Source of the DNA: Halospina denitrificans
GTDB lineage: Bacteria; Pseudomonadota; Gammaproteobacteria; Pseudomonadales; Oleiphilaceae
Length of the DNA stretch: 64,000 nucleotides
Assembly: GCF_004364635.1 (NCBI RefSeq)
Contig: NZ_SOAX01000002.1
Coordinates: 496,001 to 560,000, forward strand
Direction: 5' to 3'
The position numbers were made by a program, and so were the translations under genes. Below, piece after piece: positions 3,798 through 45,744 of this stretch (positions are counted from its first letter, which is position 1; the number at the start of each line of letters is the position of its first letter). The notes beneath the pieces were generated by a model. That model saw only the letters and a list, made by a program, of their open reading frames with translations. It did not search any database and had not been told where the DNA came from.

Positions 3798-3925
3798 ACG
3801 GTGAAGGATGGAGGCCGGTGGTGCTTTCCGGGAAGCTCTGGAGCCATGGATGGCGGAAGCGCAGCGTACAGGGACGTATTTACAGCGATTCCCGGAAAGG
3901 ACCACCGGCCTCCATCCTTCACCGT
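3798..3925 (+). repeat. Palindromic GGA-hairpin element, type 1, copy 1
   Basis: The left arm 3798-3834 and right arm 3889-3925 are inverted repeats matching at 36 of 37 positions. They enclose a 54-nt core (3835-3888). The core holds two small hairpins: GCCA-TGGA-TGGC (GGA at 3848-3850) and TAC-AGGGAC-GTA (GGA at 3872-3874). The core is 52 of 54 identical to the copy at 45637, but the outer arms are unrelated in sequence. The element lies between divergent yigZ and the permease, 32 bp before the permease start and in its transcript sense. Confidence 0.9.
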
Positions 3926-3957
3926 GCACAATATCAACCACCGCACGGAGGCCCCGA

Positions 3958-5043
3958 ATGCAGGCTCGCCTGGAACAACGCAGTTTCCTCTTACTGCTGG
4001 CCATCGTCACCGCCCTGTTCTTCTACATCATGAAACCCTTCTTCGGCGCCATCTTCTGGGCCTGCGCCCTCGCCATCATCTTCTTCCCCATCCAGAAGTA
4101 TTTTACCCGCTTCTGGGGCGAACGCCCCAACCTGACCGCCCTCGCCACACTGGGCTTCTGCCTGTTCATCGTCATCATGCCCACGCTCTTCGTCACCGCC
4201 TCCTTTGTGTACGAAGGCGTCAAGTTCTACCAGCAGATGCAGGCCGGTGAAATCGACCCCGAACAGTTCATCAGACGGATCGGCGAAACCGTCCCCTTCA
4301 TCGGCTCCGCCATGGAAGCAGCCGGCATCAACCTGGACAACCTTCGGGAGCGCGCCATCAACACCCTGATGCAGGGCAGCCAGTTCTTCGCGCAGAGTGC
4401 CCTGAACATCGGCCAGAACACCGTCCGGTTCTTCATCCATTTCACCATCATGCTCTATCTCGCCTTTTTCCTGCTGCGCGACGGCGATTACCTCAAGAAC
4501 CTGCTGGCACAGGCCCTGCCACTGAGCCAGGAGCGGGGCGCACTGCTCCAGGGCAAGTTTGCCGAGGTTACCCGGGCCACCATCAAGGGCAACATACTGA
4601 TCGCCGCCATCCAGGGCGCACTGGGAGGATTCATTTTCTGGGCACTGTCACTGCCTGCGGCCATTCTGTGGGGGGTTGTCATGGGCGTGCTGTCACTGAT
4701 TCCCGCCGTGGGTGCGGGCCTGATCTGGGTGCCAGCGGCCATCTATCTCTTTGCCGTCGGCGCATGGATCGAATCCATCGTTCTGGTTCTGTTCGGGACC
4801 GTTGTCATCGGCCTCATCGACAACCTGCTTCGCCCGGTCTTCGTCGGCCGCGATACCAAGCTCCCGGACTACATTGTCCTGCTCTCGACCCTGGGCGGCC
4901 TGATGCTCTTCGGCATCAACGGCTTTGTGATCGGCCCCCTGATCGCCGCCCTTTTCACCGCTTTCTGGGGTATATTCATCCGGGACTTCAAACGCCCTGA
5001 GCCCTCAGAAAGCATGGTTAGCGACGCGGCGGATCAGGACTGA
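3958..5043 (+). CDS. AI-2E/PerM family inner-membrane permease
   Basis: This is a 361-residue polytopic protein of the AI-2E transporter superfamily (PerM, YdiK, TqsA and relatives). Members export small molecules or ions; the substrate here cannot be told. It starts with a basic cap (MQARLEQRSF) and two membrane segments (FLLLLAIVTALFFYI, IFWACALAIIFF), then the usual cytoplasmic helical region, then four or five further membrane segments. The conserved C-terminal block DNLLRPVFVGRDTKLPDYIV is diagnostic. The ATG at 3958 has GGAGG seven bases upstream. Upstream codons in frame would be translated repeat element and are excluded. The last 10 bases overlap the tail of the convergent diguanylate cyclase gene. 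Confidence 0.9.
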   Translation: MQARLEQRSFLLLLAIVTALFFYIMKPFFGAIFWACALAIIFFPIQKYFTRFWGERPNLTALATLGFCLFIVIMPTLFVTASFVYEGVKFYQQMQAGEIDPEQFIRRIGETVPFIGSAMEAAGINLDNLRERAINTLMQGSQFFAQSALNIGQNTVRFFIHFTIMLYLAFFLLRDGDYLKNLLAQALPLSQERGALLQGKFAEVTRATIKGNILIAAIQGALGGFIFWALSLPAAILWGVVMGVLSLIPAVGAGLIWVPAAIYLFAVGAWIESIVLVLFGTVVIGLIDNLLRPVFVGRDTKLPDYIVLLSTLGGLMLFGINGFVIGPLIAALFTAFWGIFIRDFKRPEPSESMVSDAADQD

Positions 5044-8021: not shown

Positions 8022-9182
8022 TCAGGCGCCGCGTTCCTCGAGTACCGCAACCGCCGGCAGGGTATGCCCTTCCACGAATTCCAGGAAGGCGCCGCCACCG
8101 GTGGAAATGTAGGAAATCCGGTCGCTTACCCCGAACTGGTCAATCGCCGCTACGGTATCACCGCCACCGGCGAGAGAAAACGCATCACTGTCCGCAATCG
8201 CATTGGCAAGGCGCCGCGTGCCGCCAGAGAATGCATCGATCTCGAACACGCCAACCGGCCCGTTCCAGATAATGGTCTTGGCATCCACCAGCAGATCCGC
8301 AAAGGCCGAGGCGGTTTTGGGCCCGATATCGAGGATCATGTCGTCATCGGTCACCTCGTCCACCGACTTGGTGGTGGCCCTTGCAGTCTCGGACACCTCG
8401 GAGGCGACAACCACGTCCGTGGGCTGGGCAATGTCCACCTTCTCCATCAACGCGCGGGCTTCGTCCATCATATCGTGCTCACACAGGGACTTGCCCACCG
8501 GCTTACCACTGGCCGCCAGGAAGGTGTTGGTAATACCGCCACCCACGATCAGCTTGTCGACAACTTTCGAAAGCTGCTCCAGCACCGTGAGCTTGGTCGA
8601 AACCTTGGAGCCGCCCACAATGGCAACCACGGGCTTCTCCGGATGCTCCAGCGCCTTGGTCAGCGCATCCAGCTCCCCGGCCAGCAATGGCCCGGCGCAG
8701 GCTTCCGGCGCAAATCTGGCCACCCCGTGGGTGGACGCCTGGGCCCGATGGGCCGTCCCGAAGGCATCCATAACAAAAACATCGCAAAGCGCCGCGTAAC
8801 GCTTCGCCAGGGCTTCGTCGTCCTTCTTCTCGCCCTTGTTGAAACGGACGTTCTCACACAGGACAACCTCGCCCTCGTCCACCTCAACGCCATCCAGATA
8901 ATCCTGGATAACACGCACCTCCTGGCCAAGCAGCTCACCCAGCCGAGCGGCAACAGGCTTGAGAGAGTCCTCCTCGGAATAGACGCCTTCCTCGGGGCGG
9001 CCAAGATGGGACATCAGCATGACCCGGCCACCGGCGTCCGTTGCGGCACGGATGGTTTCCAGGGAGGCGCGCAGGCGTGCGTCGCTGGTGACTTTGCCGT
9101 CCTTGATGGGAACATTCAGGTCCTCGCGGATCAGTACCCGCTTGCCCCTCAGATCCAGATCGGTCATGCGTTTAATGGTCAT
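8022..9182 (-). CDS. pgk: Phosphoglycerate kinase
   Basis: This monomeric cytoplasmic kinase transfers phosphate between 1,3-bisphosphoglycerate and ADP in glycolysis and gluconeogenesis. At 386 residues it has the standard bacterial length. Landmarks are REDLNVP and SHLGRP at the N-terminal substrate site, VGGSKVSTK at the start of the nucleotide domain, NGPVGVFE, and [12 protein letters not shown] near the end. The ribosome site is GGAAGGA just before ATG. The gene is separated from upstream epd by 368 bases that hold two inverted palindromic elements, an unusual spacer inside a central-metabolism operon. That makes an internal promoter or post-transcriptional uncoupling of epd from pgk-fba plausible (inference). 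Confidence 0.98.
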
Positions 9183-9268
9183 GGTGTCCTTCCTTCAGTC
9201 TTTAAGGGTTTAAGTCTTTAAATCTGCCCAAAACTCTCAAACTACCGGCGACCTGCACATTGCCTGAA

Positions 9269-9379
9269 GCACCGGAGTGTGGTGGCCCTTTCAGGGAGGC
9301 TCGATGACAGGATGTCATCGCGCCAGCGCCCAGGGATGGGTTCACAGCGGTCCCTGAAAGGGCCACCACACTTCGGTGC
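9269..9379 (+). repeat. Palindromic GGA-hairpin element, type 2, copy A
   Basis: Arms 9269-9297 and 9351-9379 are inverted repeats pairing at 28 of 29 positions; the exception would be a G-T pair. The 53-nt core is identical to that at 32525-32577 although the outer arms differ. Hairpin 1 is GATGACA-GGA-TGTCATC (GGA at 9310-9312); hairpin 2 is CCCA-GGGA-TGGG (GGA at 9334-9336). The GGA strand is the plus strand, antisense to the epd-pgk transcript. Confidence 0.9.
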
Positions 9380-9412
9380 CCGCACCCAACAAGCCGTCCA
9401 ATTCCAGTGCCG

Positions 9413-9524
9413 GCATCGGAGCGGGGCAACGCTTTCAGGGACCGCTGCAAGTCCATCCATGGACGCTGGCGCTTCGTCATCCCTGACGAAGAGCCTCCCT
9501 GAAAGCGTTGCCCCGCTCCAATGC
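9413..9524 (-). repeat. Palindromic GGA-hairpin element, type 2, copy B
   Basis: Arms 9413-9441 and 9496-9524 pair at 28 of 29 positions. Read on the minus strand (the epd-pgk mRNA sense), the 54-nt core folds as TTCGTCA-GGGA-TGACGAA (GGA at 9480-9482) and TCCA-TGGA-TGGA (GGA at 9456-9458). Both stems differ in sequence from copy A yet remain complementary, while the joining segments GGCTC and GCGCCAGCG are unchanged. Confidence 0.9.
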
Positions 9525-9550
9525 TCCAAGCTCCGTGCAGGCTGCTATCT

Positions 9551-10585
9551 CTACTTCAATGCTGTCCAATAACCGGCAACATCCAGCATCCGATTCGCAA
9601 ACCCCCACTCGTTATCGAACCAGCACAGCACCTTGATCATCTGCCCCCCACTCACCCGAGTGTGCCCGCCGTCGACAATCGCGGACCGGGCATCGTGATT
9701 GAAATCCGTGCTGGCCAGGAGTTCGTCGCTGTACCCAATAATACCTTCAAGGGACGATGCCGCGGTATTGCGGAGCAGCTCGTTCACCGCCGCTGCATCT
9801 GTCGTCGAGCGCACAGTCACCGTCATGTCGATGGCCGAGACGTTGATCGTTGGCACACGCACGGCGACCGCACTGAAGCGGTCCTTCATGGCCGGCAGGA
9901 GGCGTTCAATGCCGCGTGCCAGGCCGGTCTGGACCGGCACCATGTTGTGGAAGGCGCTTCGGGTGCGGCGCAGGTCCTGGTGGTGGTAGGCATCGATGAC
10001 CGGCTGGTCGTTCATGGCCGAGTGGATGGTGGTGATGGAGCCGCATTCAATGCCGTAGGCTTCATCCAGGCGCTGGATGATGGGTACGATGCAGTTGGTG
10101 GTGCAGGAGGCGTTGGAGACGATGCGATCCTCGGGGCCCAGGGTGTCATGATTGACCCCGTACACCAACGTCCGGTCCACATCCGGCTCGGCCGGCTGTG
10201 AAAACATGACCCGTCGGGCGCCGCTGGCAATATGTTCTTCCGCAGAGGCCCTGCTGGTGAAGGCGCCGGTGCATTCCAGCACCAGGTCCACGTCCAGCTC
10301 CTTCCAGGGCAGCTTCGCCGGTGAGGGTTCGCGCGCGACGCGGATGGCATCGTCGTTGACGATCAGGTTCTCACCGTCCACCGCCACCCGGCCCGCAAAC
10401 CGGCCGTGAGTGGTGTCGAAGCTTGTCAGGTGCGCGATGGTATCCGGGTCGGACAGCTCATTGATGGCCACCACCTGCAAGCGGTCCCGGTAGCCGTTTT
10501 CGTAGAGCGCGCGCAGGACGCATTGCCCGATACGCCCATACCCGTTTATGGCGACCCGTGCCACCACGCTGCCCGCCTCGCTCAC
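9551..10585 (-). CDS. epd: Erythrose-4-phosphate dehydrogenase-like (GapA/Epd family)
   Basis: This NAD-dependent aldehyde dehydrogenase of the GAPDH superfamily has 344 residues. The Rossmann motif INGYGRIGQ is near residue 14 and the catalytic cysteine lies in SNASCTTNC. Several blocks resemble Epd more than Gap[41 protein letters not shown] and VDFNHD-like [14 protein letters not shown]. In gammaproteobacteria Epd oxidises erythrose 4-phosphate to 4-phosphoerythronate for pyridoxal phosphate synthesis, and epd-pgk-fba is a known gene order. A glyceraldehyde-3-phosphate role cannot be excluded from sequence alone. The GTG start overlaps the tkt stop (GTGA), so the two are translationally coupled. 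Confidence 0.85.
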
Positions 10586-32495: not shown

Positions 32496-32606
32496 GCTCC
32501 GGGGCCGGGTAACCCTTTCAGGGAGGCTCGATGACAGGATGTCATCGCGCCAGCGCCCAGGGATGGGTTCACAGCGGTCCCTGAAAGGGTTACCCGGCCC
32601 CGGAGC
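32496..32606 (+). repeat. Palindromic GGA-hairpin element, type 2, copy C
   Basis: Arms 32496-32524 and 32578-32606 are perfect 29-bp inverted repeats. The 53-nt core is identical to copy A (9298-9350), with GGAs at 32537-32539 and 32561-32563. Beyond the innermost CCCTTTCAGGGA the arms share no similarity with copy A. It begins 30 bases after the ilvD stop, in sense with ilvD. Confidence 0.92.
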
Positions 32607-45636: not shown

Positions 45637-45744
45637 GGCGGGTGGGGTACTGCTCCCCGGGAAGCTCCGGAGCCATGGATGGCGGAGGCGCAGCGTACAG
45701 GGACGTATTTACAGCGATTCCCGGGGAGCAGTACCCCACCCGCC
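45637..45744 (+). repeat. Palindromic GGA-hairpin element, type 1, copy 2
   Basis: Arms 45637-45663 and 45718-45744 are perfect 27-bp inverted repeats. The 54-nt core differs from copy 1 at only two positions, T to C at 45668 and A to G at 45687; if those bases pair, the change keeps pairing (T-A to C-G). GGAs are at 45677-45679 and 45701-45703. It lies between sufB and sufC in mRNA sense. Confidence 0.92.

Follow-up and report, generated by a model that had tools for sequence, protein, structure and literature searches.

Copies of a dispersed palindrome with paired GGA-loop hairpins in an epd-pgk spacer: a candidate CsrA-docking element

Two bodies of earlier work bear on the sequences described here. 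The first concerns the REP and BIME elements of bacterial genomes, which are palindromes tagged by the motifs GTAG and CGTC (PMC3733652). The second concerns the RNA-binding protein CsrA, for which in vitro selection (SELEX) has given the consensus RUACARGGAUGU, with a six-nucleotide loop, AC/GU pairing, and invariant ACA and GGA, and of which a single dimer spans pairs of sites separated by 10-63 nt, with an optimum at approximately 18 nt or more (PMC7652899). In the following, we describe a family of intergenic palindromes that carry two GGA-loop hairpins each, starting from two copies that occupy the spacer between epd and pgk in a tkt-epd-pgk-fba operon, all genes of which are on the minus strand. 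The stretch of DNA analyzed, here called the window, is 64,000 nucleotides long and contains five copies of the family, denoted A to E (Table 1).

Table 1. Positions of the operon genes, the spacer and the five palindrome copies in the window
Feature	Positions	Strand	Details
epd, erythrose-4-phosphate dehydrogenase type gene	9551-10585	minus	upstream in operon
pgk, phosphoglycerate kinase gene	8022-9182	minus	downstream in operon
epd-pgk spacer	9183-9550		368 nt; occupied by copies A and B
Copy A, full palindrome	9269-9379	plus	GGA-bearing strand is plus, antisense to operon
Copy A, arms	9269-9297 and 9351-9379		29 nt each
Copy A, core	9298-9350		53 nt
Copy A, hairpin 1	9303-9319	plus	GATGACAGGATGTCATC, loop CAGGATG
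Copy A, hairpin 2	9329-9340	plus	CCCAGGGATGGG, hexaloop AGGGAT
Copy B, full palindrome	9413-9524	minus	GGA-bearing strand is minus, sense in operon mRNA
Copy B, arms	9496-9524 and 9413-9441		29 nt each
Copy B, core	9442-9495		54 nt
Copy B, hairpin 1	9473-9490	minus	TTCGTCAGGGATGACGAA, hexaloop AGGGAT
Copy B, hairpin 2	9452-9463	minus	TCCATGGATGGA, hexaloop ATGGAT
Copy C	32496-32606	plus	core identical to copy A, arms differ
Copy D	3798-3925	plus	37-bp stem, upstream of plus-strand gene
Copy E	45637-45744	plus	27-bp stem; same intergenic region occupied in a congener

A sequence-only reading of this DNA had placed two opposed elements between epd and pgk, 33 nt apart, with only the GGA loops of copy B on the operon strand, and the coordinates and strands confirm each of these points. 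Namely, copies A and B are oriented in opposite directions on either side of a 33-nt gap (9380-9412), and each of them has two GGA-loop hairpins, both on one and the same strand. The spacer folds far more stably than dinucleotide shuffles of itself, with z values of -14.4 and -15.0 on the two strands and with none of 100 shuffles as stable. The flanks outside the arms of A and B, at 9252-9311 and 9482-9541, also show inverted similarity to each other (72% over 60 nt) and end in CCTGCAC and GTGCAGG, which enclose A and B together in a single larger structure; this was not seen in congeners.

The pair is not particular to this operon, and the same reading left out the three further full copies in the window, the genomic total and the recurrence of opposed couples. 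With a covariance model trained on 41 copies, we find 107 copies in the 3.3 Mb genome, all with E<=1.5e-8, and a pattern for the core alone hits 84 genomic places, as opposed to 0 for the reversed control. When read along the GGA strand, each element starts with one arm of a 26-48 bp stem, continues through hairpin 1 (loop C-A(N)GGAN-G), an AGCG linker, hairpin 2 (CANGGAYG) and TTYACAGCG, and ends with the other arm, for a total length of about 110-150 nt, of which the nearly invariant core takes up 53-54 nt. The consensus structure from RNAalifold is a three-way junction, with two-sided change at 19 of its 25 pairs. Over 81 copies, arm positions 1-28 are Watson-Crick paired in 89-100% of cases, most of them in at least 95%, compared with the fraction of approximately 0.3 expected at free positions, while the identity of the pair is nearly free at arm positions 12-15, 19-22 and 25-29. 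In other words, the stem sequence differs from copy to copy and its pairing is kept.

The copies are intergenic: in three genomes, with genes called by a simple coding model, 0 of 146 lie inside genes. A long open reading frame at 3808-5043 does begin within copy D; the coding model sets its start at 3958, beyond the element. Twelve couples of copies lie within 700 nt of each other, and all 12 are inverted, with no direct ones; ten of them point outward, the epd-pgk pair being one of the two that point inward. Matches are found in 57 of 81 genomes of the same taxonomic family. In one genus of this family (g227), which is probably Marinobacter, going by named relatives of epd, most genomes have at least dozens of copies, often close to the maximum of 57 candidates scored, and two (G727 and G741) have none detectable, and several other genera of the family have no copies. 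In a sample of the class, 24 of 276 genomes match, some with 15 to 62 copies, so that the distribution in Gammaproteobacteria is patchy; in a phylum sample, searched with a stricter pattern, no genome outside the class matches. One distant gammaproteobacterium (G269, loci L231-L260) has about 85 copies, which have a common arm sequence (CAAAGTAATCGGGTATTTC), in contrast to the window genome, where the arms are free. As for possible carriers, four viral contigs match a short version of the pattern and the full element was seen in none of them, and among plasmids there is one weak partial match only, on a Halomonas replicon; neither phage nor plasmid carriage was retained. At gathering threshold, Rfam has no match in the window; relaxed matches to the microRNA precursors MIR1437 and MIR1858 score far below it, and we take them to be artefacts of the palindromes. 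Our literature search found no description of the family, and neither Marinobacter nor Alcanivorax nor Halomonas appears in the REP surveys that we consulted.

A closed C-A(N)GGAN-G loop is present in hairpin 1 in 168 of 177 copies, compared with 0.7% in shuffles. The pattern used to find the copies covered hairpin 2 and not hairpin 1, and hairpin 1 was scored on its loop plus closing pairs, since in one subtype its stem is split by a 3-nt bulge. In 167 of 168 copies the gap between the two GGA motifs is 20-21 nt. Thus two marks of CsrA/RsmA binding RNAs are found in the element, namely short hairpins whose ANGGAN loop sits on a closing C-G pair, and a distance suited to bridging. In many copies, GUACAGGGAUGU is a full match to the SELEX consensus; that said, the selected ligands typically have stems of at most four base pairs, and some hairpin 1 stems are longer. 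What is more, the loop positions that vary are those left free by the consensus and the ones that stay fixed are those that the motif needs; none of the fixed positions of either loop changes across 15 orthologous elements whose flanks are 90% identical. The window genome encodes one CsrA, which we take to be nearly identical to that of E. coli. On these grounds, the part of the sequence-only reading that saw a CsrA-type element here holds well as regards loops, spacing and the presence of the protein, and binding of CsrA to the elements is a prediction from the motif.

Which of the two strands is meant to fold can be judged from the imperfections of the arms. Counted on the GGA strand over four sets of copies, the residual non-Watson-Crick arm pairs comprise 90 G-U and 12 A-C (p about 6e-16); with orthologues among them, these sets are not wholly independent, and the distant genome G269 alone gives 37:8. 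Under neutral mutation the two kinds should be about equally frequent, and on the opposite strand the ratio would be reversed; the mismatches therefore indicate that the ability of the GGA strand to fold on its own, single-stranded, is maintained. This also applies to copies that are antisense to both neighboring genes, where the ratio is 23:3. The folded single strand is likely RNA rather than single-stranded DNA. However, the arms accept G-G and G-A mismatches about as readily as G-U ones, a tolerance that would be open to a single strand of DNA too, and for this reason RNA is the likely, and not the sole, candidate.

Putting these observations together, our preferred explanation, to which we would give about even credence, is that the family is a REP/MITE-like dispersed intergenic palindrome with a CsrA dimer-docking module on one strand. 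The sequences themselves also show that the arms change in a concerted way, and that some positions of the family are stable and others were gained or lost. The GGA strand, when single-stranded and most likely as RNA, would fold into a three-way junction of one long stem and two short hairpins, the ANGGAN loops of which would be spaced for bridging by one CsrA dimer. Wherever this strand is transcribed, the element could dock CsrA and its long duplex could serve as a barrier or as an RNase III site, and the copies taken together might add up to a pool of CsrA sites spread over the genome. In the epd-pgk spacer, copy A would be the older resident, with its loops antisense, and copy B a lineage-specific second copy, in the sense orientation by chance. 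A bolder version, which we put forward only tentatively, is that a mobile palindrome has seeded approximately 100 CsrA-dimer modules into the intergenic regions of Marinobacter and its relatives, which would act as a sponge or as a repeat-borne regulon, with the arms as duplex ends for processing.

Could the arms be perfect for a reason that has nothing to do with function? DNA template switching, i.e. the correction of quasipalindromes, is known to homogenize the arms of inverted repeats (PMC8604942, PMC7202029), and if it alone kept the arms perfect, their pairing would say little about function. Between the genomes G276 and G278, 15 orthologous elements provide 405 arm pairs, with 31 two-sided Watson-Crick changes, 4 two-sided changes involving a non-Watson-Crick pair and 20 one-sided changes (5 to G-U and 15 others). 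The two-sided changes accumulate at a rate of 7.7%, close to the 9.6% divergence of the flanks, and 17 of the 31 are unreachable via G-U. Such fast paired change suggests that template switching between the arms contributes to their perfection, besides selection on the fold. As the whole story, however, we deem it improbable, because it does not predict the strand asymmetry of the mismatches (90:12) or explain why loops, linkers and spacing are conserved; it may act jointly with the docking of CsrA that we prefer. The main rival is, in our ranking, a different one, namely a mobile or selfish palindrome unconnected with CsrA, which would spread as a folded single DNA strand with the help of a putative transposase or recombinase, its loops and linkers being conserved for the mobilizing enzyme and the neighboring genes being bystanders. 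High copy number, patchy spread, couples that are inverted only, G-containing mismatches tolerated alike and a folding constraint that is independent of gene direction all agree with it, and so do the gain or loss of copy B in one lineage and the species-specific core variants at shared sites. At the equivalent positions of one orthologous couple (L226 and L263), different species have different core subtypes, which suggests replacement or conversion between copies. Against it, a PF01797 search found no Y1_Tnp/RAYT gene in the genome, with control genomes positive, no target duplication was identified, and the variation in the loops tracks the CsrA motif, a likeness that would have to be coincidental if the loops served a transposase. 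We regard this rival as possible and somewhat doubtful.

The remaining alternative is the one from which the analysis started, that the A/B pair separates the levels of tkt-epd from those of pgk-fba by mRNA processing, partial termination or CsrA-dependent stability. Its intercistronic location and the loops of copy B on the operon mRNA speak for such a switch, as does the computed energy of mutual pairing between A and B on the operon strand (-177.1 kcal/mol, versus -164.7 kcal/mol for separate hairpins), which would, if such pairing forms in cells, mask the hairpin 2 loop of copy B. Yet the relatives do not keep the pair. In the three congeners G276, G278 and G279, copy A is the only one of the two in the spacer; its orientation is unchanged, so that its loops are antisense to the operon, and its arms and hairpin 1 show compensated changes. 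Copy B was encountered in no species other than that of the window, and the flanks of its site are too diverged between congeners to define an empty site. Most other Marinobacter have neither copy, the spacer being short or otherwise filled, and the element that Marinobacter sp. SS21 has there is related to, yet distinct from, these copies and is also antisense. Elsewhere in Marinobacter, the same spacer holds unrelated palindromic repeats, of the GTAGGTCGGATTAGGCGAAGCC type at L008, L009, L014 and L018; unrelated palindromic repeats of the GGGGTCTGACCCC type occupy it at L001 and L021. Since unrelated repeats are found in it in other species, the spacer seems to be a permissive site for repeats. 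The retained copy, on this comparison of sequences, is thus one that exposes no GGA loop on the operon mRNA, and the direct link to the operon that had been proposed is not supported. Partial termination fares no better, given that a T-run follows the stem in only 2 of 81 copies, which makes intrinsic termination by the elements unlikely. With the same element beside about 100 other loci, an operon-specific switch at epd-pgk is unlikely, and we give it little credit. More generally, single copies between codirectional genes are in sense and antisense orientation in ratios of 24:6 in the window genome, 7:7 in G276 and 3:9 in G269. The sense bias is significant in the first and not in the two others, and was not retained as evidence; being inconsistent between genomes, it fits poorly with a role in neighboring mRNAs, and we claim no such general role. 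It should be added that copies from related genomes are not independent.

If CsrA does bind, this repeat family would connect about 100 sites of a widespread marine genus with a global regulator that acts on RNA, and would illustrate clearly how repeats can provide the binding sites for post-transcriptional control. Even without CsrA, it is an unusually clean case in which long arms evolve jointly and the fold of one strand is preserved, so that template switching can be told apart from strand-specific selection. The family also cautions against taking such a hairpin pair for an operon-specific switch. The copy-free genomes G727 and G741, within a genus otherwise rich in copies, offer natural comparisons for a study of csrA.

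How, finally, does the family relate to known systems? With REP and BIME elements it shares its high copy number, extragenic location, palindromic nature, frequent position near gene 3' ends and inverted couples. However, a REP unit measures 20-40 bp, well below the length of the present elements, which differ as well in their free but paired stem sequence and in their two internal GGA hairpins. Neither REP tag is consistent among 81 copies, of which 10 have GTAG close to their 5' end and 7 have CGTC close to their 3' end, and RAYT, the partner transposase of GTAG REPs, is the gene for which PF01797 had given no match. Like MITEs and other non-autonomous repeats, such as the Coxiella MITEs (PMC5896051) and the enterobacterial RU elements (PMC2759123), the elements are short, non-coding, dispersed, structured and variably present between relatives; they differ in having no conserved terminal inverted repeat sequence, and of further MITE traits, no target duplication was seen and no partner transposase was found with Y1_Tnp as the query. 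A search with the RsmZ model (RF00166) had no match in the genome, control genomes also all being below the cut-off. With the sponge RNAs CsrB, CsrC and RsmX-Y-Z, the elements share the repeated GGA-loop hairpins and their loop type, C-A-(N)-GGA-N-G. Those RNAs are single small-RNA genes with many sites each, whereas here the hairpins come as two-site modules, in some 107 intergenic copies.
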